Part shown: positions 50,314 through 64,000 of the stretch, in pieces | How positions within the stretch are numbered: position 1 is the stretch's first letter | Layout of the letters: each line of letters starts with the position of its first letter | Origin: Nitrospirota bacterium | GTDB lineage: Bacteria; Nitrospirota; Nitrospiria; 2-01-FULL-66-17 | Direction: 5' to 3' | Assembly: GCA_040757335.1 (NCBI GenBank) | Contig: JBFLXB010000005.1 | Coordinates: 62,001-126,000, forward strand | Length of the DNA: 64,000 bases | Position numbers and translations under genes: made by a program | Notes under the pieces: model-generated | The model's input: the letters and a program-made list of their open reading frames with translations, nothing else | Told to the model about the DNA's origin: nothing | The model's database searches: none

Positions 50314-52047
50314 TCAACGCCCTGCGGGGTTCGGTCGCAGCGCGCTGAGGCGGCTTTGAGCCTCTTGGACGAGCACACTGAACTTCGGTTGGTCACCGGC
50401 CAGTTTTAAAAACGCTTCGTACGCTTCGATGGCAAGGTCCGGACGGCCGGTCTTCCAGTAAATCGTTCCCAGGCTGAAGTAGGGGTTCGGAAGCTTGGGA
50501 CCCCGCTGGATGGCGGCCAGGCAAGCCCGGCTCGCTCGGTCGAACGCGCTCTCTTGCACGTAGAGCGCACAAAGATCGTTGTACAGAATCGCGTTCGGGG
50601 GCAGTCGTGCGGTCGCTCGCTCGAGGACGTTGATGGCTGACGCCGGGTCCCCGGTCAATCGGTGCGCGCGAGCCAATATCATATGGGACGATGGGTCATC
50701 GGGATACTTGTTGGCGACGTCGGTCCATAACGTCACGGGGTCCTTCCACGCGGGGTTTCGTTGCACGACTGAAATCCCCATCGCGAGGATCAGTCCGGCG
50801 ATGAGCAGCCGAGCGGCGATTCGGTTGCGGGCCAGACCCTCTCCCCAACCGGCCGCCAAGAGTGGCGCGGCGATCACGATCAAGCCTACCGAAGAAAAAT
50901 ACCCCCGGTTCTCTTGGTAGAGGTCCATTTCTGTGAACATCGCCAGGACGGCGATGGGGAGCAACCCGACCGGAAACCATGTGAGCCCGAAAGACAGGAG
51001 CGGAACACGTCGGTAGAGCGCGACGCTCAACGCCACCATGGCGACCAACATCGCACAGCCGGTGATCACTGCGGGATCGGCCACGGTCGCCGCATAATCC
51101 TTGGGATGGAAAGCGGACAACTGGACCGGAACCAGTTGGCCTTGAAGGGTCTTTTTGAACACCATCGCAAAGGTCAAAAACACGGTCCCGATGTCGTTCG
51201 GCAAGGCTTTCGGCCCGAAGGCGCCAATGACCATCCACCGCACCAGCAGGAACGCAACCGATACGGATAAAAGCGCGAGATGGGGTGCAATCCACCGCCT
51301 CAGCCCTTTTACTCCCACGCCACGAACGTAGACGTCGTACGCCACGAGGAGGACGGGGACGACGATCGCGGCTTCTTTGGCCAAGAGCGCGGCCGCAAAC
51401 GAAACCAGGGCGCCAGCGAGCGCGGAAACCCGTCCGGTTTGACGGAACCGGATAAAAAAAATCACGGTCAGCAGCGACCACAGCGTGTAAAGGACGGACG
51501 ATCGGGCCGTAATATAGTTGACCGCTTCGGTGTGAATGGGGTGAACCGCGAAGAGGACCCCGCCCAGGATCGCAGCCATGGGGCTTGCAGAGAGGTGCCA
51601 GAGCAGCAACACCACCAAGACAGCCGAGACCGCGTGTAACCCGATATTGACGACGTGGTATCCGGTGACGTCCGAACCGCCCCACGCGTAGTTCAACGAG
51701 TACGTCACCATCACCAGCGGTCGATACCCCCGGGTGGGGAGATGGGCCGCTCCTGCGGTGGCCGAGCGAAAATGATCGAAAAGGGAGGCGGAGGGATGAA
51801 CGCTGGGGTTCTCCAGGATCAGCCAGTCGTCGTCGTTGTGAAACGCGTTCGGTAGCGAGTTATAGTAGATCGCGATCGTTCCGACGACGAGGAGCGTCCA
51901 TCCCCACCACGGGATGGGAGGTCTCCATGCTGATGGAGGGGCGTGGCGGCCCTTCAAACACGCGCCGAGCGCGCTGACCCATGCGCGGAGGTGCGTTCCC
52001 GGGGCGTCGGAGCGCGTCTGTGGTCGTTGCGGCGCGACGCTTCCCAT
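50314..52047 (-). CDS. TMTC-like polytopic membrane protein with C-terminal TPRs
   Basis: 577 residues with about ten membrane segments (first at [18 protein letters not shown]). The first loop has [11 protein letters not shown], an acidic site like that of GT-C glycosyltransferases, and [16 protein letters not shown] follows. [21 protein letters not shown] is characteristic of the TMTC/GT39-like family. Residues about 450-570 form TPRs. It probably transfers a sugar from a lipid carrier to an exported protein; donor and target are unknown. Its stop directly abuts the ABC gene's stop. Confidence 0.82.
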
Positions 52048-52128
52048 CAGGTCCTAGCTGGACCTCGTCTTCCGCGACGCGTCGAAGGATCTAGCGAGGG
52101 CCACGAAGACCGGATTGGAACGCGTCCA

Positions 52129-52536
52129 CTAGTGCTCTTCCTTGACCAGGTTCTTGTTCCAGTCCGGGATCTCGACCACGAGGTCCATGGTTCCGTTGGG
52201 AACGGTCTGGCAGCCCAAGCGAGACTGGAGCGTGGTGGCCGGCGCTTCATCGAGTTGGTCGAGTTCGTCGTCGGTCGCTTCGTTGCACGATTCCAGGCCC
52301 TGCTTCACGATCACGTGGCAGGTCGAGCACGCGCACACGCCTCCACACACGTGTTCGAGGTCGATACCCGCCCCGAGCGCGATATCCAGGATGCTGCCGG
52401 GCTGGCCGGTCGGTCCGTATGGGATCTTCTCCGGGTCGACGGTCACGGACACGCCCTTGTTCACGAACGTGATCGTGTACGGTTTTTGCGGCAGTGTAAC
52501 CTTGGGTTTGGCGATATAGGGATTCGTTCCCCCCAT
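52129..52536 (-). CDS. [2Fe-2S] ferredoxin, adrenodoxin type
   Basis: 135 residues. C-x5-C-x2-C in VCGGVCACSTCHVIV plus the fourth Cys in LGCQTV are the [2Fe-2S] ligands; the DELDQLDEAP acidic helix is the partner-docking region. ISC-type ferredoxins share this layout. A 30-residue N-terminal extension (KPKVTLPQKPYTITFVNKG) precedes the fold. It is monocistronic and divergent from the PIG-L gene. Confidence 0.92.
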   Translation of the reverse strand: MGGTNPYIAKPKVTLPQKPYTITFVNKGVSVTVDPEKIPYGPTGQPGSILDIALGAGIDLEHVCGGVCACSTCHVIVKQGLESCNEATDDELDQLDEAPATTLQSRLGCQTVPNGTMDLVVEIPDWNKNLVKEEH

Positions 52537-52688
52537 GTGATCCTCCGAGTGTCAGACGCAATACGGCTCCCCAATCTACCACACTGCTTTTGCCCCCGCC
52601 AAGGCGCACACGCCGCGAACGTGCCCTGCGTTTGGTCGAACGGATCGTCTATACTGAGCGCGTAACGACACGGATCTGGAGATGCAAA

Positions 52689-53588
52689 ATGGTGCGGCGT
52701 TCACGAGGCAGACGGGTCACGCGCTCCCGGGCCGGCACAGGACACCCGCCGGTTGACGGGACGTCCGCGCTCTGGACCGACGCGCAGATCGTGCCTCCGC
52801 CGCTCGACCGCCCACCGGGGTCGCGCGTGCTGGTGCTGGCTCCGCACATGGACGACGAAACCCTGGGCTGCGGCGGCAGCCTGCACCGGCACGTTCTCGC
52901 GGGCGAAGTCGTGACGGTGGCGTATATGACCGACGGTCGCAAGGGTGATCCGGCCCTCAACGCCAGAGTACTTCCGCTGCAGGAACGGGAGCGGTTGGAG
53001 GACGCCTTGGCCGCTGCGCGGCGCGAAGAGGCGCGAAAGAGCGCGGCGATCCTGGGCGTGACGGACCTGCGGTTCCTCGGGAACCGCGATCAAGAGCTGC
53101 GCATCACGCCCGATACCCGACGGCAGGTGTGCGAACTCCTCGTCGAACTGAGGCCGGATCTCGTCTACCTGCCGTTCCCCACCGACCACCACCCCGACCA
53201 CCGCGCGACCAATCGGATCTTCCTGTCCGCTTTGGGCGGGTGCCGGGGGATCGATCCGCCGTGGTGCTGCGGGTTCGAAGTGTGGGCGCCGATCGAACCG
53301 AATTGCCTGGTGGACATCACGTCGGTCGCGGAGATCAAACAACGAGCCTTGGCCCAGTTTACCAGTCAAATGGCGACGATCGACTACAGCCGCTGCATCA
53401 TGGGTTTGCACGCGTATCGATCGATCGCCCATCTTCGGGGACGCGGGTTCGCCGAGGCGTTCGTACTGCTCGCGGCGGCCGACTATCGCCGGGAGGCATT
53501 ACGGTTCCTGCGGCGGGCCGGCGGCTTGAATTTAGCCACCCGTCGAGGTAGCATACCGCGCACTACTCATGGAGGGGAGAGGGGGTGA
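52689..53588 (+). CDS. PIG-L family N-acetylglucosaminyl deacetylase-like protein
   Basis: 299 residues. Zinc site LAPHMDDETLGCGG and HHPDHRA, with FLGNRDQELRI in between, define the LmbE/PIG-L fold. Such enzymes deacetylate GlcNAc conjugates in thiol-cofactor, antibiotic or lipid synthesis. A basic N-terminal stretch of about 40 residues has no signal peptide. The substrate is unknown. ATG 52689 chosen. Confidence 0.88.
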   Translation: MVRRSRGRRVTRSRAGTGHPPVDGTSALWTDAQIVPPPLDRPPGSRVLVLAPHMDDETLGCGGSLHRHVLAGEVVTVAYMTDGRKGDPALNARVLPLQERERLEDALAAARREEARKSAAILGVTDLRFLGNRDQELRITPDTRRQVCELLVELRPDLVYLPFPTDHHPDHRATNRIFLSALGGCRGIDPPWCCGFEVWAPIEPNCLVDITSVAEIKQRALAQFTSQMATIDYSRCIMGLHAYRSIAHLRGRGFAEAFVLLAAADYRREALRFLRRAGGLNLATRRGSIPRTTHGGERG

Positions 53589-53593
53589 GCGGG

Positions 53594-53884
53594 ATGAAAA
53601 AGGTTATCTTGGCAGCGGTCGCGGTGTCGATGATGTGGGCTGGTTCGGCACTGGCCGGTGCAGCGGGGAATGTAAGCGGCGAGGTCACCAAGGTGGACGG
53701 CGAGATGGTGACCATCAAGATGGCCGACGGCACGTCCAAGGCGGTCCACGTTGATCCGGCTGGAACAAAGAAGGAAGGTGAAATCAAGGTCGGGGCACAC
53801 GTGGCCGCAGACGTCACGTCGAGTGGACACGCGAACTGGATCAAGGAAATGAAAGACGATAGTATGGGGACGATGAAGAAGTGA
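53594..53884 (+). CDS. Small exported protein (DUF5666-like)
   Basis: 96 residues. MKKVILAAVAVSMMWAGSAL and an AGA site form a signal peptide. The mature part (NVSGEVTKVDGEMVTIKMAD, then VGAHVAADVT) resembles small OB-like periplasmic domains. GTG 53585 would add three residues. Role unknown. Confidence 0.7.
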   Translation: MKKVILAAVAVSMMWAGSALAGAAGNVSGEVTKVDGEMVTIKMADGTSKAVHVDPAGTKKEGEIKVGAHVAADVTSSGHANWIKEMKDDSMGTMKK

Positions 53885-53960
53885 GTCCCCGTGTGGGAGA
53901 TCGGTACGCTCCGGCGCCTGTCGAGCCCCGTCTCGGCGGGCGCCGTTTGTTTGGCGGTCG

Positions 53961-54380
53961 GTGATGTCGAGCCCGGTCGCGCTCATCCTGGGGGTGGGAT
54001 TGCTGGCGGGGGGTGTCGCCGTGGCGTTTTGGTGGTTGGACGAGCCGGAGCGGGCCATTCCCGGCGTGCTGCTCTCAGTAGGACCGGCTGCCAAGGCTGC
54101 CCCTTACGCTGTGGCTCAGGGCGCGGTGACGCACGGAGAGGCCGTGCTAATAGATTTTGGCGACGGCGACTTCGCGTTTTTTGTGAACCGATCCGACGAC
54201 GTGCGCGCGTTGATCAACGGGTGCGGGGAACGCGTGGCGCCGGTCCGACACGAGCGGTTCCCTCTGCTCGTGGACGCGCGTTTTCACGTTCGAAACGTGC
54301 CACCGTACCTGGTCGAGGCGCGCTCGGCACGGTACCTGTTCGATCTGCACGCCTCGCCCAGTTTTTCCGATTGCCGCTAG
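53961..54380 (+). CDS. Membrane-anchored hypothetical protein
   Basis: 139 residues from GTG 53961 (ATG 53964 equally possible). One N-terminal membrane segment (VALILGVGLLAGGVAVAFWW) then a soluble beta-rich part with GDGDFAFFVNRSDDV. I recognise no family. It ends three bases from the convergent DsrH-like gene. Confidence 0.55.
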   Translation: MMSSPVALILGVGLLAGGVAVAFWWLDEPERAIPGVLLSVGPAAKAAPYAVAQGAVTHGEAVLIDFGDGDFAFFVNRSDDVRALINGCGERVAPVRHERFPLLVDARFHVRNVPPYLVEARSARYLFDLHASPSFSDCR

Positions 54381-54383
54381 CGA

Positions 54384-54644
54384 CTACCAAACCACAACGG
54401 TATCAGCATCCCAGATCATGTCCATCAGGCGATCGTCTTCGATCAGTGGATAGGGCGTCGCGGTTTTGCGCGCGTGCGCGTCGCCCGCGAGCACGAACGT
54501 CGGGCACGGTAATCCCGGCTGTGCGGCAACGGCGTCTTGAATGAGGATGATCGAGCACGAATCAGTGGCCGCGGTCTGGTGGGCGAGCAGGTCCCACGGA
54601 TGAACCGATCCGGCGGATTTCACGATGTGCAGCGTCCCGGCCAT
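54384..54644 (-). CDS. DsrH/TusB-like sulfur-relay protein
   Basis: 86 residues. MAGTLHIVKSAG opens the small TusB/DsrH fold, and the ending LIEDDRLMDMIWDADTVVVW is its usual C-terminus. Last gene of a three-gene set of DsrE-fold proteins. These pass sulfane sulfur between thiol carriers. The upstream gene's stop is two bases away. Confidence 0.75.
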   Translation of the reverse strand: MAGTLHIVKSAGSVHPWDLLAHQTAATDSCSIILIQDAVAAQPGLPCPTFVLAGDAHARKTATPYPLIEDDRLMDMIWDADTVVVW

Positions 54645-54646
54645 TC

Positions 54647-55000
54647 TTAGAACACCACAAATCGATCGGCTTGGCCGATGAGCTTGGCGATGTCCGGCGG
54701 ATCGACCGGGACGATCCGGTAATCGCTGTCACCCGCGTCGCGTCCCTTGAGCGCGGCCCGCTCCACGTAGAATCCCGGCTCTAGCGCCTCGGCCAGCGAA
54801 GGCAAATACTTCTCCACCTCCTCGGCGCAGGCTGAATCCTCGGCCTCGGGAAACAGAAGCGCGACAGCCGGTCCCCGCAGCACCACCGATACGGTATGCG
54901 ACCCACTGCCCAATCCGAGCGCGATGCGGATCGCCTCGCCCGGCCGGGCGCTGGTCATGGGATCGCCGGTGATCAAGACGAGAATGCGGCGGGCCGGCAT
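54647..55000 (-). CDS. DsrE/DsrF-fold protein
   Basis: 117 residues from ATG 55000. RILVLITGDPMTSARPGEAI, VVLRGPAVALLF and a C-terminal IAKLIGQADRFVVF fit the DsrE/TusC fold. One Cys (SACAEEVEKYL) lies in the loop where carriers of this fold can bear a persulfide. The start overlaps the preceding gene by one base. Confidence 0.7.
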   Translation of the reverse strand: MPARRILVLITGDPMTSARPGEAIRIALGLGSGSHTVSVVLRGPAVALLFPEAEDSACAEEVEKYLPSLAEALEPGFYVERAALKGRDAGDSDYRIVPVDPPDIAKLIGQADRFVVF

Positions 55001-55317
55001 CAGTCGAACGCGAGAAACCGGTCGCAACCTGCGATAATGTCGGACAGCACCACCAGGCCGCAGAACGTGGCGCGATCATCGATCGGCACCCCCATTTTCT
55101 GCGCTCCGAACGCGCACACGAACAGCTTGGCCCCACGGCCGGGCAGACGCTGGATGGGCGGCGTGTCCAGGCAGCGCGTGCCCTCGTCGATCAAGTACAA
55201 GTAGACATCGTCTCCGCGGCGCATCGCGGCGTCGGAGAGGCGAGCCACGGTGTCGAGGTTGGGGTGTTCAGGACCGGTGGAGAGCAAGAGACCAAGTTTG
55301 CGACGAGTGCTGGTCAC
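55000..55317 (-). CDS. DsrE family protein
   Basis: 105 residues. KLGLLLSTGPEHPNLDTV, then VYLYLIDEGTRCLDTP, LFVCAFGAQKMG and LSDIIAGCDRFLAFD are the DsrE fold. It has three cysteines; that in VCAFGAQK aligns with the sulfur-binding position. First of the trio. DsrC, TusA and TusE are not in the window, so whether the set works in tRNA thiolation or sulfur oxidation is open. Confidence 0.78.
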   Translation of the reverse strand: MTSTRRKLGLLLSTGPEHPNLDTVARLSDAAMRRGDDVYLYLIDEGTRCLDTPPIQRLPGRGAKLFVCAFGAQKMGVPIDDRATFCGLVVLSDIIAGCDRFLAFD

Positions 55318-55324
55318 GGCGGCG

Positions 55325-55354
55325 ATGCTATCAGCCGATTGAAGATGATGTCAA
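55325..55354 (-). promoter_or_regulatory. Promoter for the DsrE-fold trio
   Basis: Reading the minus strand: TTGACA (55354-55349), 18 bases, TAGCAT (55330-55325), just upstream of the GTG at 55317. The leader would be nearly absent. Confidence 0.5.
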
Positions 55355-55386
55355 TTTGATAAACAGCAGGTCATATGTCTCCGTTC

Positions 55387-55402
55387 AGCGACACGTGTCG
55401 CT
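55387..55402. promoter_or_regulatory. 16-bp perfect palindrome
   Basis: AGCGACACGTGTCGCT, self-complementary over its full length, in the intergenic stretch between the DsrE trio and the sigma-54 element. It is about 145 bases upstream of the -24 box, a typical distance for an activator site. Confidence 0.5.
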
Positions 55403-55532
55403 ATGATGGGGGCGTTTCCCTACCGCGTTCCAGTCCGGCACGAGGAGGCCTACTTTAAGAAATTAGGGGCATCCAATTGATCTTCTGACGCTTACCCGAT
55501 CAACTCTCTCCGGTCGTTCGCGCATCTGAAGC

Positions 55533-55547
55533 TGGCACGAGGGTTGC
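55533..55547 (+). promoter_or_regulatory. Sigma-54 promoter (-24/-12)
   Basis: TGGCACGAGGGTTGC is an exact TGGCAC-N5-TTGC. Transcription would begin near 55560, about 320 bases before the first exported protein. The 55318-55879 stretch otherwise holds only the palindrome at 55387, a minus-strand promoter and short unsupported frames. Confidence 0.7.
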
Positions 55548-55879
55548 CTCTCTCCTGTGTCACGTTGGCAGCCGATCACTCTGTGCTGTTGCCGGAGGCA
55601 TCCCATGGATGCAGTGAAGTGGCGCATCAGGCACCACCCGCCCCACCACGTCCGCCGATCAGTTTTTGCCAGACGATATCAATTAAAGACAAGCGTTTGT
55701 GTTTGCAAGTCTTCGATGAAGAGTTTAAGCCTCGTGGTGTACGCGTGAGCCGTGTATGAACACGAGGTCACGGAGCTACGAGCGAGGAGCGGACACTCTC
55801 GTCCCCCCGTGTAGATCAGGAGGGCTTGGTCATGCGCCCAATTCACCGCGAGACCTTGACCATCACAAGGAGGGAGACC

Positions 55880-56526
55880 ATGAAGACCGGCTATATCAAA
55901 GTGCTAGGACTAATGTGTTTGGTCTCACTTATTTTTGGCCCTACTCGTACTGCGAATGCGGAGCTGACATTCTCGGACCCAGTAAGTATCTCTCAATCGC
56001 CCTTAACGTTCTCGGGAGTAGATGCTTCGGGAGGAAATGTCTTCGGATATGACTTCAAGACCTCTGGTACGTCAATTTATGCGGTCTGGTTTGAGTCCCA
56101 CCAACTTTACAGTGTAAATGACCTCTACTTTTCCAGATCTGCGGATGAGGGAGCGACATGGTCTGCCCCGATCAATATTTCAAATACCCCTCAAACGGTA
56201 GAAATGAGGCCACAACTAGCCGTGGTCGGATCGCACGTCTACATCCTATGGAGTGACTCCACTTTAGGCTAGGCTATTTGTTCGCATACTCCCATGATAG
56301 TGGCCAGACATTTTCCCCGGCGACCATCATTGTCCCTTCGACTGAATCGTACTGGCCACCCTATCCGGCAATGGCTGCCAATGAGACTGGAATCTACGTG
56401 GTGTGGGACCGACCATGCCCTCAATGGGTCGAGCCTGGTGAGCGGGACGGTGAAGGTCAGGTTAGAGGGGCGAAAGCCGTGTACAGACCCGCCCGAAGAA
56501 CCGGCGGCGCCTGCGGGGCCATATAA
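55880..56526 (+). pseudogene. Exported BNR/sialidase-like repeat protein, broken
   Basis: ATG 55880 (after AAGGAGGGAG) starts MKTGYIKVLGLMCLVSLIFG and a signal peptide ending TANA. BNR/Asp-box-like repeats follow (YFSRSADEGATWSAPINIS). The frame stops at 56270-56272 after YILWSDSTLG; the next repeats (FAYSHDSGQTFSPATI, AANETGIYVVW) continue from 56278 in another phase and then trail off. At least one nonsense/frameshift change and a C-terminal truncation are visible. The expected length for such proteins is several hundred residues. Confidence 0.65.
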
Positions 56527-56587
56527 GGGATGGTTCTGATCGAGGAGTCAGCTCTGCCACTTGGTTCCGAGAAGAGGAGGAACGGCC

Positions 56588-57607
56588 ATGAATCAGGTCA
56601 CACTTCGTGAGGGACGTGCTGTGCTCGCCATCGCTTTTCTGTTGCCGTGGTTCACGTCGGAGCCCGTGAACGCGGGGGTGCGGGACAACTCCGTGACCAG
56701 TGCGAAGGTCGTTGACGAGAGTCTCACGGGCGCGGATATCCAGAACAACACACTTACCGGCGCTGACATTCAAAACGGATCCCTGACGCGGGGCGATCTC
56801 CAACCGGTTGCCCACCAGGTCGTGGTGGCGACGAGCGGCGGAGACTACACCAGCGTGAGCGCGGCGCTGGCTGCCATCACCCCTTCGGCCACGGATCCCT
56901 ACGTCATCGAGGTGATGCCAGGGACCTACACCGACAACATCTCCATGAAGAGCTACGTGCACCTTCGTGGGGCTGGCCGCGAGGTGACGACCATTCAGTC
57001 GCCATCAACATCATCCGATGTGGTGACGCTCACCAACGTCACGAACGCGGCGATCTCTGGCCTGACCATTGCTGGAGGTCGTCACGGGATCAACATGTTT
57101 GGTTCGTCTGCCACCATCACGGGGAATACGATTTCCGGGAACAGCCGTCGGGGGATGGTGCTCGACTTTTCCACGCCGATCATCAGAGGAAATACCATCA
57201 CTGGAAATCTGGATGGAGGGATCGAGAACATTTCTGCGTCACCCACCATCGTGGACAACACGATCACCGCCAACAGCAGCTTTGGAATCGTGAGCAACTC
57301 CTCGTCTCCCACGATCGCGCGAAACATCATCACGGGAAACACGGCGTTTGGGATCGACAACATCAACTCCCCCTCGCTTATTCGAGACAACGTGATTGCC
57401 GGGCATACCTTCGGCGTGTCGACCATGACCTCTTCATCGTCGACGATCCTCAACAATCGCATCACTGGCAACGCGTCCGCCGATATCAGTGTGGACGCGA
57501 CGAGCATCCCGAACATCAGCTTCAATCTGTACGACACCATCACCGGGACTACGGGAATAGGGTCGTTCAATGTCAATTCCAACGGCGATCCTGCCCCGGC
57601 TCCGTAA
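56588..57607 (+). CDS. Exported right-handed beta-helix (pectate-lyase-fold) protein
   Basis: 339 residues. A signal peptide (AVLAIAFLLPWFTSEPVNA), pentapeptide-like TGADIQNNTLTGADIQNGSL, then regular parallel beta-helix turns rich in ITGN, ISGN and IAR/IRD repeats (about 165-320). GDYTSVSAALAAI and VIEVMPGTYTDNI are the usual entry to the fold. Members bind or cleave polysaccharides, but no catalytic residues are evident. ATG 56588 follows GAGGAGG. Confidence 0.8.
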   Translation: MNQVTLREGRAVLAIAFLLPWFTSEPVNAGVRDNSVTSAKVVDESLTGADIQNNTLTGADIQNGSLTRGDLQPVAHQVVVATSGGDYTSVSAALAAITPSATDPYVIEVMPGTYTDNISMKSYVHLRGAGREVTTIQSPSTSSDVVTLTNVTNAAISGLTIAGGRHGINMFGSSATITGNTISGNSRRGMVLDFSTPIIRGNTITGNLDGGIENISASPTIVDNTITANSSFGIVSNSSSPTIARNIITGNTAFGIDNINSPSLIRDNVIAGHTFGVSTMTSSSSTILNNRITGNASADISVDATSIPNISFNLYDTITGTTGIGSFNVNSNGDPAPAP

Positions 57608-57615
57608 CGAGCGGA

Positions 57616-57634
57616 GTCAAGCGACCAGCTTGAC
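57616..57634 (+). promoter_or_regulatory. Short hairpin between two exported-protein genes
   Basis: GTCAAGC, loop GACCA, GCTTGAC: a perfect 7-bp stem a few bases before the ribosome site of the next gene. It may limit read-through or translation. Confidence 0.4.
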
Positions 57635-57648
57635 GGGAAGGAGAAGCT

Positions 57649-59892
57649 ATGAAGCGCGAGCACGAAGGTGCCAGAGAGCGAACCATCTCACCTTGTTGTC
57701 CGTCGGTTCGTGTGTTGCAGTATGGGTCCCGATTCCTCGGTGTTGTGGTTGCGGTCGGGTTCATGTTCCCGCTGGCTGCGAGCTCGGCCGAGACCGTCTC
57801 GTTCGCCCCTGCCGTCAACTTTGCGACCGGGGAAGGCCCCCAGGCCGTGGCGGTTGGGGATCTGACCCAAGATGGGAAGCCTGATCTGATAGTGGTCAAC
57901 GGCAGCGGCAATTCCGTCTCGATCTTATGTGGGAATGGCACGGGCTCGTTCGGAGCGCCCACCCACTTCGCGGTGGGGGCTGGCCCAGTGGCCGTAGCCA
58001 TCGGCGATCTCAACGGGGACGGGAAGCTGGACGTGGCCGTGGCCAATGCCGACAGCCACAACGTCTCGGTCCTGCTGGGCACCGGGGGCGGTGCTCTGGG
58101 GCCTGCCGCGAATTTTCCGGTGGGGAGCAGACCCTACTCGGTAGCCATCGGAGACCTCAACCAGGATGGGAAGCCGGACCTGGCCGCGGCGAACTTCGTT
58201 AGCAACACGGTGTCGATTCTGTTGGGGGATGGGACTGGGTCCTTTGGAACGGCCACGGATTTTGCCGCGGGGAACGGCTCAGAGGTGGTGGCCATCGGCG
58301 ACCTTAACCTGGATGGGAAACCGGATCTGGCCGTGGCGAACTTCTACAGCAACACCGTGTCGATTCTCTTGGGTGACGGCACCGGCTCCTTTGGGGCGGC
58401 CACTGAGTTCTGGGCGGGAGAAGCCGCCACGTTCGTGGCCATCGGGGATCTCAATCTGGACGGGAAGCCCGATCTCGCGGTTGCCAGCGCCTATGCCAGC
58501 GATGTCTCGGTCCTCCTTGGAGATGGCTCGGGCTTCTTTTCCCCGGCGCTCGCCGTTCCGGTTCATGGGGGCGCGCAGACCGTGGAAATCGCAGACTTTA
58601 ACGGAGACGGCAAGCCGGATCTAGCTGTGGCCTACACGCTCGCCGGCGTGGTGTCGGCGCTGATCGGGGACGGCACCGGGGCATTCGGGCCCATGGTGGA
58701 CTTCACCGGGGGCAGCGGACCGTCGTACTGGGACCTCCTGGCGGCCGGAGATTTGAACCGGGACGGCAAACCAGATCTGGCTGTGGTCAACAGCGGGAGC
58801 AACACAGTTTCGGTCCTGCTTAATACCACGGTACCGGACCCGGCGCCGGACCTCGTGGTCCAATCGGTGTCCGCGGTGATCTCGGGCGGCGATGTCGTGG
58901 TGACCGACGTCGTGCGGAACCAGGGGACCGGTGCGGCGGGGGCGTTCGCAGCGTCGTACTACTTCGCGCAGGATCCCAACGCGCCCGCGAATGGGACGTT
59001 GATCGGATCACGAAGCGTGAGCGGTCTGGCTGCGAACGGCGGATACAATGGGGCGACCACGCGGTTCCGGGTACCGAACGCCACGCCGAGAGGGACCTAC
59101 TACGTGTGCGCCGTGGCGGATTCCGGGAACGCGGTCACAGAATCGAACGAAAACAACAACGTGCTTTGTACCACCGGGCAGTACACGATCGGCCCTGATC
59201 TGACTCCCACGTCGTTGTCAGCGTCGATTGCTGGAGCGTCGATCTATGTCTCCGACGTGGAACAGAACATCGGCAACCGGTGGGCGAATCCGTTTGAGGT
59301 CTCGTTCTACTTTACGTCGAGCCCGGACGCGTCAACCAGTGGGACGTTCATTGGCACACGGAGTGTGCCTGGGATCGATGGAGGCTCACGAATCAACTCG
59401 GCCAACACCAGGTTCGCCATCCCCGATACCACCCCAATGGGGACCTACTACGTGTGCGCGGTGAGCGATTCAGGCGGAGCGGTCGACGAACTCAATGAGG
59501 CGAACAACACCCGGTGCACGACCGGCACCTACCTGATCGGCCCCGACCTGGTCGTGTACGCGCTGTCTGTCACGAAGTCGGGTGCGAGCCTGTACGTGAG
59601 CGACACCGAACAGAACATCGGCAACCGCCGGGCGGAGGCCTTTACGGTGGCGTTCTACGTGTCCTTGGACTCCGCGTTTGATCAGAGCGATACGCTGCTG
59701 GGGACTCGCGCAGTGGCAGGGTTGGCCGGGGGCGGTGCGTCGAATTCGCGGACGACGGTGTTCAGGGTTCCCTCGGGAATTCCGGCAGGAAACTACTACG
59801 TGATCGCAGTGACGGATTCAGGGGGCGCTGTGAACGAGCTCAACGAAGCCAACGACGTGCGCGCAACGTCCGCGACCTACGCGCTCCCTTAA
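57649..59892 (+). CDS. Exported FG-GAP/VCBS and CARDB repeat protein
   Basis: 747 residues. An N-terminal export signal (GVVVAVGFMFPLAASSA) precedes about seven FG-GAP/VCBS repeats (residues about 55-395), each with a GDLNxDGKPDLAVAN calcium loop and VSILLGDGTGSFG. Three CARDB domains follow (about 400-745), each starting PDL and ending near TYYVCAV/YYVIAVTDSG and NELNEAND. The design is of a surface adhesin or large extracellular binding protein. It is the longest and only intact large gene of the sigma-54 cluster. Confidence 0.87.
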   Translation: MKREHEGARERTISPCCPSVRVLQYGSRFLGVVVAVGFMFPLAASSAETVSFAPAVNFATGEGPQAVAVGDLTQDGKPDLIVVNGSGNSVSILCGNGTGSFGAPTHFAVGAGPVAVAIGDLNGDGKLDVAVANADSHNVSVLLGTGGGALGPAANFPVGSRPYSVAIGDLNQDGKPDLAAANFVSNTVSILLGDGTGSFGTATDFAAGNGSEVVAIGDLNLDGKPDLAVANFYSNTVSILLGDGTGSFGAATEFWAGEAATFVAIGDLNLDGKPDLAVASAYASDVSVLLGDGSGFFSPALAVPVHGGAQTVEIADFNGDGKPDLAVAYTLAGVVSALIGDGTGAFGPMVDFTGGSGPSYWDLLAAGDLNRDGKPDLAVVNSGSNTVSVLLNTTVPDPAPDLVVQSVSAVISGGDVVVTDVVRNQGTGAAGAFAASYYFAQDPNAPANGTLIGSRSVSGLAANGGYNGATTRFRVPNATPRGTYYVCAVADSGNAVTESNENNNVLCTTGQYTIGPDLTPTSLSASIAGASIYVSDVEQNIGNRWANPFEVSFYFTSSPDASTSGTFIGTRSVPGIDGGSRINSANTRFAIPDTTPMGTYYVCAVSDSGGAVDELNEANNTRCTTGTYLIGPDLVVYALSVTKSGASLYVSDTEQNIGNRRAEAFTVAFYVSLDSAFDQSDTLLGTRAVAGLAGGGASNSRTTVFRVPSGIPAGNYYVIAVTDSGGAVNELNEANDVRATSATYALP

Positions 59893-59898
59893 CCCGGC

Positions 59899-59934
59899 GA
59901 GGCAACCGGATGGCATCTGCCCTCCGGTTGCCTC
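59899..59934 (+). terminator. Strong hairpin terminator-like structure
   Basis: GAGGCAACCGGA (59899-59910) and TCCGGTTGCCTC (59923-59934) form a perfect 12-bp stem starting seven bases after the stop of the VCBS protein. No long T-run follows. Confidence 0.65.
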
Positions 59935-60052
59935 TGGCCGTCGCCGCAGTGCGCTTGTCCGCTTCGGCGAGGCGCCTCCAAAGCCGGCTGCCCACCGAAT
60001 TGCGGGCGGGCACGACGTGTGTCGCCGGCGAGCGCACAGTTGACGTCAGGAT

Positions 60053-60077
60053 GATGTATATGATATCGATATACATC
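60053..60077. promoter_or_regulatory. 25-bp operator before the BrnT/BrnA fusion
   Basis: GATGTATAT, a 7-base centre GATATCG, ATATACATC: perfect 9-bp arms, 16 bases before the ATG. TTGACG (60040-60045) lies just upstream, so the operator covers the -10 region. It suits autorepression by the CopG-type antitoxin domain. Confidence 0.75.
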
Positions 60078-60093
60078 GCTTCTGGGCAAAACG

Positions 60094-60657
60094 ATGGACG
60101 TGCTGGCCGATGCTCGGGGGTTCGACTGGGATCAAGGCAATGTCGCCAAGAATTGGGAACGCCATCGGGTAACGCCGGCCGAGTGCGAACAGTCGTTTTT
60201 CAATCGTCCACTGATCGTCGCTCCAGATGCCGCACACTCCGTTCACGAGGCGCGCTACTATTTGCTCGGTCGGACGGACCGAGGCCGACGGCTTTTTGTT
60301 GTGTTCACCCTACGTCGAGACCGCATCCGGGTGATCTCGGCGCGAGACATGACCGAAGGGAGCGTGAGCGCTACCATGCGCAGCCTGAAGAAGGTGCCTA
60401 AGTTCAAAAGCGAGGCGGCAGAACGCGAGTTTTGGGCCACCCACGACTCGACCGAGTACGTCGATTACTCCAGGGCGAAGCGCGTGACGTTTCCTCACCT
60501 CAAGCCGTCGACCACCACCATCTCGCTGCGGCTGCCGCAATCCCTCCTCGATCATCTCCGACAGCTCGCCAACGAGCGGGATGTGCCGTATCAGACTCTC
60601 CTCAAGATGTTTCTGGCGGAACGGGTGGAACGCGAGTTGCGCGGAAAGCCGGCGTGA
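60094..60657 (+). CDS. BrnT toxin-BrnA antitoxin fused in one reading frame
   Basis: 187 codons. Residues 3-86 are BrnT (GFDWDQGNVAKNWERHRVTP, YYLLGRTDRGRRLFVVFT, IRVISARDM). Residues 95-187 are a BrnA/CopG-type antitoxin (KKVPKFKSEAAEREFW, STTTISLRLPQSLLDHL). The usual toxin tail is readable one frame away from 60354: RRERERYHAQPEEGA, then TAA at 60399-60401, overlapping the antitoxin ATG (60376). One base is missing after the Met codon at 60349, so the toxin loses its last helix and runs into the antitoxin. The original arrangement would be brnT then brnA with overlapping ends. Confidence 0.87.
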   Translation: MDVLADARGFDWDQGNVAKNWERHRVTPAECEQSFFNRPLIVAPDAAHSVHEARYYLLGRTDRGRRLFVVFTLRRDRIRVISARDMTEGSVSATMRSLKKVPKFKSEAAEREFWATHDSTEYVDYSRAKRVTFPHLKPSTTTISLRLPQSLLDHLRQLANERDVPYQTLLKMFLAERVERELRGKPA

Positions 60658-60789
60658 GTGGGGCTGACGCGGTAACCCTTCGTCCTTCAGTGCATCCTGT
60701 CTGACGATCAGCCGCACGCCTACAGCGGCGCTCTGGCGCCTTTTTGTGCCCTCGTGCGGAATCGTGTGCCGTGATAGAATGCCGTGGTC

Positions 60790-61959
60790 ATGCCCCCGAT
60801 CTATCTCGACTCGATCGCCGCTACCAGACCGCATCCGGACGTGGTGGCAGCGATGCTGCCGTGGCTCACCGAGGACTTCGGCAATCCCATGTCGTTGCAC
60901 GGGTTCGGGGAGAAGCCGCGCGCCGCGGTCGAAGGGGCCCGCGCCCAGGTCGCGGGGTTGCTCGGGTGTGACGATCGAGAGATCATTTTCACCGGCAGCG
61001 GGACCGAGGCCAACACGCTGGCGTTGCGGGGGCTCATGGCGCCGCTGGCGAAGCGGGGCCGGCATCTCATCGTCTCCGCGATCGAGCATCCATCGATCCT
61101 GGACACGGCGCGGCGTCTGGAGCGCGAGGGGGCCGCACTAACCATCGTTCCGGTTGATCGTTACGGAGTGGTGGATCCGGGCGCGGTGACGGCTGCGATC
61201 CGGTCGGACACGGTGTTGGTATCGATTCAACTCGCGAACCCGGAAATCGGCACGGTGCAGCCCATCGCCGAGATCGCCCGGATCGGGCGCGAGCGGGGCG
61301 TGTTGGTCCACACCGATGCGGTGGCGGCGGGAGGGCGAGTCGAGCTGGACGTGCGCGCGCTGGGTGTGGATGCGCTGAGCGTGGCGGCCAACCAATTCTA
61401 TGGTCCCCCGGGCGTCGGCGCGCTGTACGTGCGGCGGGGGGTGCGGCTCGAACCGCTCCTGGTCGGCGGGGTGCAGGAGGGCGGGCGGCGGGCCGGCGGG
61501 CACAACGTCCCGGCCATCGTGGGGATGGGGCGCGCTGCGACTCTCGTAATCGAGCACGGGAAGACGTGGCAGACGTCGATGGCCGCGGGGCACCAGTTAT
61601 TCGCAAAGCGTTTGTCCGAGATCGAAGGCGTGCTGCTGACGGGCCATCCCGACCGGCGACTCCCGGGTCACGTCAGCGCGTGTTTCGAATACGTGGAGGG
61701 CGAGGCACTGGTCCGGGCCTTGGGTCAGGCCGGCGTGGCCGCGGCCAGCGGGTCCGCGTGCAGCGACTTCACCGTGTCCTCCAAGGTGTCCCACGTCTTG
61801 TCCGCACTGGGAGTCGAGCCGACGCAAGCGCAGGGATCGATCGTATTCTCGCTGGACCGCGATACCACGGAACCACAGGTCCGCGAAGTCTTGGAGATCC
61901 TCCCACCCATCATCGAGCGGTTGCGTCGGCTGTCCCCCCTCTATCGCGTCAACCGGTAG
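60790..61959 (+). CDS. NifS/IscS-like protein lacking the PLP lysine
   Basis: 389 residues from ATG 60790 (GTG 60784 also in frame). The fold type I aminotransferase signatures of cysteine desulfurase are present: IYLDSIAATRP, FGNPMSLHGFG, FTGSGTEANTLALRG, AIEHPSIL, NPEIGTVQPI, HTDAVAAGG, and the catalytic Cys loop SGSACSDFT and SHVLSALG. But where the Schiff-base lysine should be (SxHKxYGPKG) the sequence reads AANQFYGPPG: His-Lys is Asn-Gln, with Gln at residue 202. Also the usual Gln of DAVQ is Ala. It may be a non-canonical persulfide carrier or binding protein rather than an active desulfurase. Confidence 0.85.
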   Translation: MPPIYLDSIAATRPHPDVVAAMLPWLTEDFGNPMSLHGFGEKPRAAVEGARAQVAGLLGCDDREIIFTGSGTEANTLALRGLMAPLAKRGRHLIVSAIEHPSILDTARRLEREGAALTIVPVDRYGVVDPGAVTAAIRSDTVLVSIQLANPEIGTVQPIAEIARIGRERGVLVHTDAVAAGGRVELDVRALGVDALSVAANQFYGPPGVGALYVRRGVRLEPLLVGGVQEGGRRAGGHNVPAIVGMGRAATLVIEHGKTWQTSMAAGHQLFAKRLSEIEGVLLTGHPDRRLPGHVSACFEYVEGEALVRALGQAGVAAASGSACSDFTVSSKVSHVLSALGVEPTQAQGSIVFSLDRDTTEPQVREVLEILPPIIERLRRLSPLYRVNR

Positions 61960-61987
61960 CGGCTCTCCTCGTGGTCGGTGCGTTCAA

Positions 61988-62016
61988 TTGACAAAGCCTG
62001 CGGGCTTTTCTATGAT
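61988..62016 (+). promoter_or_regulatory. Sigma-70 promoter for ribBA-ribH-nusB with a terminator in its spacer
   Basis: TTGACA (61988-61993), exactly 17 bases, TATGAT (62011-62016). The spacer reads AAAGCC-TGCG-GGCTTT followed by TCT, a stem and T-run like an intrinsic terminator for the NifS-like gene upstream. One 29-base segment seems to end one transcript and start the next. Confidence 0.7.
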
Positions 62017-62047
62017 ATCGATCTCAGCGAAACTATAGGAAAAATCT

Positions 62048-63250
62048 ATGGAATTTGACACCATCGAATCAGCCATCGCCGAAATCGCAGCCGGCCGGAT
62101 GGTCATTCTGATCGACGACGAGGATCGGGAAAACGAAGGAGACCTGGTCCTGGCCGCTGAAAAGGTCACGCCGGACGCGATCAATTTCATGGCGCGGCAC
62201 GCGCGCGGACTCATCTGCGTGACCTTGACCCCCGAACGCGCGGACGCGCTGCAGTTGGGCCCCATGGCATCGGAAAACACCGCCACCTTCGGGACGGCGT
62301 TCACGGTCTCGGTGGACGCGCGCGTGGGCGTGACCACCGGGATTTCAGCGAGCGACCGCGCCGCCACCATCAACGCCATTCTAAATCCCGCGACCAAACC
62401 CGCTGACCTTGCCAGGCCGGGCCACGTGTTCCCGATCCGGGCGCAGCCCGGAGGGGTGCTCAAACGCGCGGGGCAAACCGAGGGGTCCGTTGACTTGGCG
62501 CGTCTGGCCGGTCTGATTCCGGCGGGCGTGATCTGCGAGATCATGAACGAGGACGGCAGCATGGCGCGGGTGCCGGAGCTCATGGCGTTTGCGCGCCAAC
62601 ACGGCCTCAAGATCGTCACGATCAAACACCTGATCGAACACCGCATGCAGCGAGAATCGTTCATCCACCGGCTCGCGGAGGCTGATCTGCCGACCCGTTA
62701 CGGCGAGTTCCGCGTGGTCGTGTACGAGAACACGATCGACCACGGAACCCACGTGGCGCTGGTCAAAGGCGCGGTCCGGCAGGACGAGGTCACGCTCGTT
62801 CGCGTGCACTCCGGCTGCGTGACCGGCGACGTGTTCAGTTCCATGCGCTGCGATTGCGGTGAACAGTTGCACGCCGCCATGGCCCAGATCCACAAAGAAG
62901 GCGGCGGCGTGTTGCTGTATCTCAATCAAGAAGGGCGGGGCATCGGGTTGGTGAACAAGATCAAGGCCTACGCCCTGCAGGATGAAGGACACGACACGGT
63001 GGAGGCGAATCTGGCCTTGGGGTTCAAACCCGACCTGCGCGACTACGGGATCGGCGCCCAGATCCTGGTTGATCTCGGGGTTCGCCGGATCCGGTTGATG
63101 ACGAACAACCCCCGCAAAGTCGTCGGCCTCGAAGGCTATGGTTTGACCGTGACGGAGCGGGTGCCGATCGAGACGCATCCTCACGAGAGTAACCGCGAGT
63201 ATCTTCGGACCAAGAAGCAGAAACTCGGTCATATGTTGAACCGTGTATGA
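62048..63250 (+). CDS. ribBA: Bifunctional DHBP synthase/GTP cyclohydrolase II
   Basis: 400 residues. RibB half: [33 protein letters not shown] and [12 protein letters not shown]. RibA half: [23 protein letters not shown] (zinc cysteines), [19 protein letters not shown] and DYGIGAQIL. It supplies both riboflavin precursors. The stop overlaps the ribH start by four bases. Confidence 0.97.
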
Positions 63251-63759
63251 CGGCCCGGGCCGCGGTCAAAGGCCCGGGGACCCGGTCTCGGGCGGCGATG
63301 CGCGCGGGCTCGGGGCGCGGTCTGCGGGTGGCGATCGCCGCCAGCCGTTTCAATCCAGACATCACCGAACAGTTGGTGACCAACTCGCTGCGGGCCCTTG
63401 CCGCGAGCGGAGTGGATCGGCGGGCGGTCAGGGTCGTCCGCGTGCCGGGGGCCTTTGAGTTGCCGATGGCGGCACAGTGGTTGTGCCGCGAAGGCGAATA
63501 CGACGCGGTTATTTGCCTGGGCGCGGTGATCCGGGGCGAGACCCCGCACTTCGATCTCATCGCACAAGCCGTGTCTCGGGGGCTCATGGACGTCGCGCTG
63601 AGCGAGGGGCGGCCGGTGGTGTTCGGGGTCCTGACCACCGAGACCGTTGAACAGGCGGAGGAGCGGGCCAGCTCCGAGGGATTGAATCGAGGCGCGGAAG
63701 CCGCCCGCACCGCGATCGAGATGGCGGTGCTGGCCAGACAGTTCGCGCAGAAGGCGTGA
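63247..63759 (+). CDS. ribH: 6,7-dimethyl-8-ribityllumazine synthase
   Basis: 170 residues. An N-terminal extension of about 25 residues rich in Arg/Gly precedes [35 protein letters not shown] and [15 protein letters not shown] are the family motifs. Forms the lumazine from RibBA and RibD products. nusB begins two bases after the stop. Confidence 0.96.
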
Positions 63760-63760
63760 C

Positions 63761-64000
63761 GTGGGATTTCGTCGCAAAGGACGCGAGTACGCGCTGCAAT
63801 TGCTGTTTGGCTGCGACCTGACCGGGGCGGGTCATCCCACCAAGGGACGGCCGTTCGGCGACCTGCCGGCGTTTTGGGCTGAGCGCCGCGCGGCGCCGGA
63901 AGTGCAAGCGTTCGCGGAGGCGCTCGTGCGCGGCGTGGCCCTGCACGGCCACGACATTGACGCGGTGATCAGCCGACACGCGAAAAACTGGGCCATGGCT
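63761..64000 (+). CDS. nusB: Transcription antitermination protein NusB (3'-truncated by window edge)
   Basis: 80 codons visible from GTG 63761. GFRRKGREYALQLLFGCDL is the NusB start and FAEALVRGVALHGHDIDAVI with NWAMA the second conserved block. NusB with NusE forms rRNA antitermination complexes. The ribH-nusB order is common in bacteria. Confidence 0.9.
   Translation, partial: MGFRRKGREYALQLLFGCDLTGAGHPTKGRPFGDLPAFWAERRAAPEVQAFAEALVRGVALHGHDIDAVISRHAKNWAMA

Follow-up and report, generated by a model that had tools for sequence, protein, structure and literature searches.

The window, that is, the whole stretch of 64,000 nucleotides of Nitrospirota DNA analysed here, encodes an IscS/NifS-like protein that has lost the lysine forming the Schiff base with PLP. 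The protein belongs to a class in which this loss goes together with the loss of the substrate-binding arginine. So far, the lysine-less IscS of A. fulgidus has been treated as an archaeal peculiarity; the combined loss of Lys and Arg turns out to mark two clades that reach from archaea into several phyla of bacteria and are associated with TusA and IscU. We consider it marginally probable that the class is a persulfide-relay or assembly platform, leading from TusA via the IscS-like cysteine to IscU, and not a cysteine desulfurase. The window gene itself is best called an orphaned, diverged, fast-evolving member of the class. The function proposed for the class may not hold for this gene, which lacks TusA and IscU neighbours and stands on a long branch.

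Fold and active site of the window protein

The open reading frame (Table 1) has an alternative GTG start at 60784. Its product matches the Pfam family PF00266 with 223.8 bits (E 4.5e-66). The top NCBIfam models are NifS and IscS, both well under their curated cut-offs (415.9 bits vs 530.75 for NifS, and 329.6 vs 643.2 for IscS). The AF2 model has a mean pLDDT of 92.5, with values below 50 only at residues 325-329, at the tip of the Cys loop. Foldseek matches of the model in PDB include human NFS1, A. fulgidus IscS, and E. coli IscS, with TMq of 0.91-0.95 (0.94 for E. coli IscS, 1P3W), and the protein has the fold-type I aminotransferase class V fold.

Residues were numbered by the E. coli IscS sequence aligned to the window protein. 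The segment carrying the main change (translation around 61381-61419 on the forward strand, VAANQFYGPPGVG) has Gln at the position of K206. Adjoining residues are altered as well: N201 occupies the position of H205, A199 the position of S203, and P207 replaces the Lys of GPKG, which nearly all relatives keep. Both residues contacting the substrate carboxylate, R354 and N155, are also replaced. Their equivalents in SspA, Arg340 and Asn150, bind the carboxylate of cysteine/alanine, and their mutation impairs function (PMC7188994); in the T. onnurineus CDS, the equivalent Arg371 and Asn165 bind the carboxylate of the substrate or product (PMC5426080). Since K206, R354, and N155 are all replaced, the window protein has neither the PLP anchor nor the cysteine anchors. 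Compared to canonical IscS/NifS (E. coli IscS, and L001 and L002 from the same genome), it shares the fold, the loop Cys, H104, and D180, but lacks K206, R354, N155, Q183, S203, H205, and T243. T76 is unchanged relative to E. coli IscS.

It is hardly credible that the protein is an ordinary desulfurase with a shifted Lys or a misaligned motif. Its overall identity of ∼43% to E. coli IscS would agree with that; however, the NCBIfam cut-offs for NifS and IscS are missed, and residues 89 to 257 contain no lysine. All five lysines of the protein (42, 88, 258, 273, and 332) lie away from the motif, and hence there is no shifted lysine to contact PLP. An earlier note on this DNA had claimed that the Schiff-base Lys is absent, that the Gln of DAVQ is Ala, and that the catalytic cysteine loop is kept, and the alignment bears this out at all three sites. 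The note also described the rest of the protein as well conserved, which holds for the fold but not for the PLP and substrate pocket, where R354, N155, S203, and T243 are changed, none of which the note mentions.

Table 1. Positions in the window of the lysine-less gene, its active-site features, and the downstream neighbours
Feature	Positions	Strand	Basis and remarks
Lysine-less IscS/NifS-like gene, 389 aa	60790..61959	+	ORF and translation
AANQFYGPPG segment	61384..61413	+	Alignment to E. coli IscS
Q202 for the PLP Schiff-base Lys (E. coli K206)	61393-61395 (codon CAA)	+	Alignment to E. coli IscS
A179 for Q183 (DAVQ to DAVA)	61324..61326	+	Alignment; Ala in 76/80 lysine-less sequences
V352 for R354, substrate-carboxylate Arg	61843..61845	+	Alignment to E. 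coli IscS
P151 for N155, substrate-carboxylate Asn	61240..61242	+	Alignment to E. coli IscS
G237 for T243, PLP-phosphate Thr	61498..61500	+	Alignment; loss nearly unique to the window protein
Catalytic Cys loop SGSACSDFT	61750..61776	+	C324 (E. coli C328), codon 61759-61761, retained
H100 (E. coli H104, stacks on the PLP ring), retained	61087..61089	+	Alignment
D176 (E. coli D180, PLP pyridine contact), retained	61315..61317	+	Alignment
ribBA, downstream neighbour	62048..63250	+	Pfam DHBP_synthase and GTP_cyclohydro2
ribH, downstream neighbour	63247..63759	+	Pfam DMRL_synthase

Extent and phylogeny of the lysine-less class

A search for relatives in 296 genomes of the same phylum, Nitrospirota, yielded many proteins with ∼50% identity that read HQFYGPKG, HR, HE, or HI where canonical enzymes have HK. 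A GTDB pattern scan added, among the matches listed, archaeal records from Bathyarchaeota, ANME-2/Methanoperedens, Thorarchaeota, and Thermoplasmata, and bacterial records from Dehalococcoidia, Deltaproteobacteria, Nitrospinota, and Omnitrophota; this set was picked by a lysine-less DNA pattern, and the loci compared in the analysis as a whole are not independent. All matches in a plasmid search were below 60% identity, with 43-46% for the five matches listed.

In the combined set, R354 is absent in all 80 lysine-less proteins and present in 40 of the 43 lysine-bearing ones (one wrong-frame row excluded). The loop Cys (C328) is retained in 80/80 lysine-less sequences. In the IscS-type sequences of 15 genomes, the HDAHQCV-type and HDQHKCR signatures split without exception, and this two-type split was repeated in named genomes. 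Chance or a read error at the K206 site is ruled out, as 80 relatives also have a residue other than Lys there, together with linked changes. The earlier note was right that this is not simple decay. Its other suggestion, the use of PLP without a covalent lysine, has become less likely for cysteine desulfuration, since the substrate-binding Arg is gone in every lysine-less member.

A PLP-dependent desulfurase working with free PLP and another base would be consistent with the retention of H104, D180, and usually T243 in the lysine-less proteins (Thr at the latter position in 47/49 of the bacterial lysine-less set). It would also agree with PLP being named as a cofactor in the 4EB5 structure of A. 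fulgidus IscS-IscU (PMC9769115), and with some genomes showing no other desulfurase. Against this, the substrate Arg is lost throughout the lysine-less set, Asn155 is variable, A. fulgidus IscS is reported to be inactive, and the window copy is additionally altered at T243, N155, S203, and H205, so that we regard such an enzyme as rather improbable. The retention of H104 and D180 hints at some kept role of PLP.

The phylogenetic tree was built without the K206, Q183, and R354 columns, with L240_can and L273_can left out as long rows; the former resembles a wrong-frame ORF. Lysine absence marks conserved clades, as an alignment check proposed in the earlier note was meant to reveal. One is a mainly archaeal SSND clade that includes A. 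fulgidus IscS (support 100/98). The other is a bacterial clade lacking K206, Q183, and R354 and including the window protein (support 100/99 in the 34-row set), which spans Nitrospirota, Dehalococcoidia, Deltaproteobacteria, and Omnitrophota. The window protein carries the traits of the latter clade, with Q, A, and V at K206, Q183, and R354, and C at C328. It falls outside the SSND clade, sharing with it Asn at 205 but having Gln, not Asp, at 206. Its sister is L057, a protein of the HR type with adjoining TusA and IscR genes (support 95/89), and its branch length is 1.06 vs the median end branch of 0.4.

In the best tree, the arginine loss has two origins and not one, although a tree uniting all Arg-less proteins in a single clade is not rejected by the AU test (p 0.29). 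The bacterial clade is not wholly free of Lys, as three proteins (L072, L074, and L079) that keep the PLP lysine but miss the substrate Arg and Gln183 nest within it; their lysine may have been regained, or may be one that has yet to be lost.

Lysine-less IscS is already known from A. fulgidus, and has been noted for IscS1 of Methanosarcina acetivorans. A. fulgidus IscS (PDB 4EB5, 4EB7, 4HVK; D199K mutant 4R5F) is the best PDB sequence match of the window protein (338 bits). Like the latter, it has no Lys, Asn at H205, Ala at Q183, no R354, and the loop Cys. Unlike the window protein, it has Asp at K206 and Ser at T243, retains N155 and S203, belongs to the mainly archaeal and not the bacterial clade, and forms a solved complex with IscU, while the window gene has no linked IscU. 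It has been reported to have no desulfurase activity because Asp replaces Lys (PMC7585200), and to contribute a Cys to the ligands of the cluster on IscU (PMC7585200; PMC9769115). M. acetivorans IscS1 (MA0808) has been reported to lack the catalytic lysine and likened to A. fulgidus IscS (PMC7585200); by description, it is linked to iscU1 as well as to four uncharacterized genes. The minimal Fe-S system MIS of methanogenic archaea comprises minimal IscS-IscU pairs, MisS/MisU, with MisS described as a cysteine desulfurase (PMC12442378, PMC12192291). As compared by description, TusA/DsrE are not part of MIS, and it has an adjacent MisU/IscU, whereas the window gene has ribBA downstream and no IscU nearby. 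In the literature searched, which included few subscription papers, we found no prior account of the linked Arg loss, the bacterial extent, the TusA/DsrE linkage, or genomes with the lysine-less type as the sole one.

Gene neighbourhoods and the proposed sulfur relay

The usual gene order in Nitrospirota is Rrf2/IscR, TusA, lysine-less IscS, IscU; some members of the archaeal-type clade have the order TusA, DsrE, lysine-less IscS, IscU. Neighbours were counted as same-strand genes within 1.5 kb, at loci with enough flanking sequence. A TusA-type gene was observed near 58 of the 65 lysine-less loci and near none of the 20 canonical loci from the same phylum (Fisher p 6e-14, which overstates the certainty because the rows are related). 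IscU was near 47/65 lysine-less and 15/20 canonical loci, and DsrE was present at 9 of 17 archaeal-type loci. Two lysine-bearing loci have TusA, and both are Arg-less members of the bacterial clade. The CPx motif is retained in the linked TusA, and the cysteines are retained in most linked IscU.

In class-mates of the window species (L061-L067), the lysine-less IscS has the motif AQQFYGPKG or AQPFYGPKG. Usually, it has no IscU nearby and is flanked by TusA and a ∼290-aa membrane protein, desaturase-like in appearance, whose first 100 aa had no Pfam match.

The joint loss of Lys and Arg, the kept loop Cys, and the linkage to TusA and IscU favour a relay or a platform, as do the genomes in which only the lysine-less type was found; A. 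fulgidus IscS, with the same three losses, is the experimental precedent. The earlier note had rightly named the carrying of sulfur as a possibility. In the proposed relay, persulfide sulfur would originate from sulfide, polysulfide, or thiosulfate. A TusA-type carrier would hand the persulfide to the dimeric IscS-like protein at its loop cysteine, joined in this handover by a DsrE-type protein in part of the archaeal-type set, and the loop cysteine would then pass the sulfur on to IscU. In E. coli, sulfur moves from IscS to TusA. The proposed flow is the reverse of this, and the gene neighbourhood does not give the direction; we infer it, as well as partner binding and the cofactor state.

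The archaeal SMS system uses sulfide (PMC12192291), and in E. coli without IscS, H2S can take over as the sulfur source for IscU (PMC13015791). The latter observation also agrees with a purely structural role, in which the lysine-less IscS would dock IscU and lend a cluster-ligand Cys, free sulfide would enter IscU directly, and TusA would be linked otherwise. The crystal structures of A. fulgidus IscS-IscU, in which the cysteine of IscS ligates the cluster, and the reported inactivity of this IscS point the same way. Yet a structural role alone leaves unexplained both the strong linkage to TusA and the presence of DsrE in archaeal-type operons, and we hold it to be unlikely.

The relay may be part of something broader, a widespread cysteine-independent ISC pathway, in which DsrE/TusA would charge the Lys-/Arg-less IscS, which would serve as the sole IscS/SufS-type system in some anaerobic bacteria and would have arisen once or twice by linked losses. 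This is a tentative proposal, somewhat short of probable. If it is true, many anaerobes supply their Fe-S assembly from inorganic sulfur carriers and not from cysteine, and the automatic annotation "cysteine desulfurase" is wrong for the lysine-less class. K206 and R354 provide a simple sequence rule to separate this class from canonical desulfurases.

The window copy and other desulfurases

No TusA-like, IscU, or IscR genes were found near the window gene within 52001-64000, and the four TusA matches of the genome sit on contigs other than that of the window gene. The genome also carries an unlinked DsrE-DsrE-TusA-DsrE2 sulfur-carrier cluster (L111, contig C3, 410-2351). The search for a canonical desulfurase elsewhere in the genome, advised in the earlier note, revealed two, one in canonical iscR-iscS-iscU-iscA (L001) and the other encoded by a further NifS-like gene (L002). 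Besides the changes GPKG to GPPG and T243G, the window protein has a Cys loop longer by two residues. An orthologue of the window gene was absent from two sampled genomes of the family (65% and 88% complete), and no close orthologues for a selection test were found in the order.

The window copy probably has a side role in sulfur transfer, perhaps with the IscU of its own genome or the unlinked DsrE-TusA cluster as partners. A paralogue in decay, or one turned to a task unrelated to sulfur, would fit the long branch, the loss of T243 and of the GPKG lysine, the orphan place beside ribBA with canonical iscRSUA elsewhere, and the missing orthologues in the two family genomes. However, the 389-aa frame is intact, the fold is confident, and the Cys, H104, and D180 are conserved after about one substitution per site, which makes such a paralogue a poor prospect.

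Two genes upstream of the window gene, both on the forward strand, were characterized by their domains. A single 187-aa ORF at 60094-60657 has a BrnT toxin domain (aa 12-88) followed by a CopG-type antitoxin domain (aa 99-176), and is a predicted fused toxin-antitoxin gene. At 57649-59892, a probably secreted protein of 747 aa has seven FG-GAP repeats and three CARDB domains; its relatives (family F5) occur near lysine-less IscS in some class-mates.

Among 15 genomes of the phylum that were profiled, ten have both canonical and lysine-less types. In the profile search, G114, G240, G250, G252, and G290 had no canonical IscS/SufS and only the lysine-less type; these are drafts, 92-98% complete, and the absence from draft genomes is not proof. 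A Dehalococcoidia chromosome, bin61 (1.1 Mb), likewise had only the lysine-less type at E<=1e-45. By the HK DNA pattern, there were 11 lysine-less carriers with no canonical desulfurase, but the pattern overlooked copies in six of them (G032, G140, G154, G230, G256, and G272), which were found by profile searches, and therefore only five sole-type genomes stand.

Some canonical desulfurases have unusual architectures. In G152, a NifS-type desulfurase (L091, 1-2646) lies in one long frame of ∼1130 aa, within which Pfam places it C-terminal to a molybdopterin oxidoreductase, and similar long-frame NifS-type desulfurases, judged by frame length alone, were seen in G274 (L082) and G154 (L257). A possible task of such a desulfurase is to provide sulfur for the molybdenum cofactor in its own enzyme.
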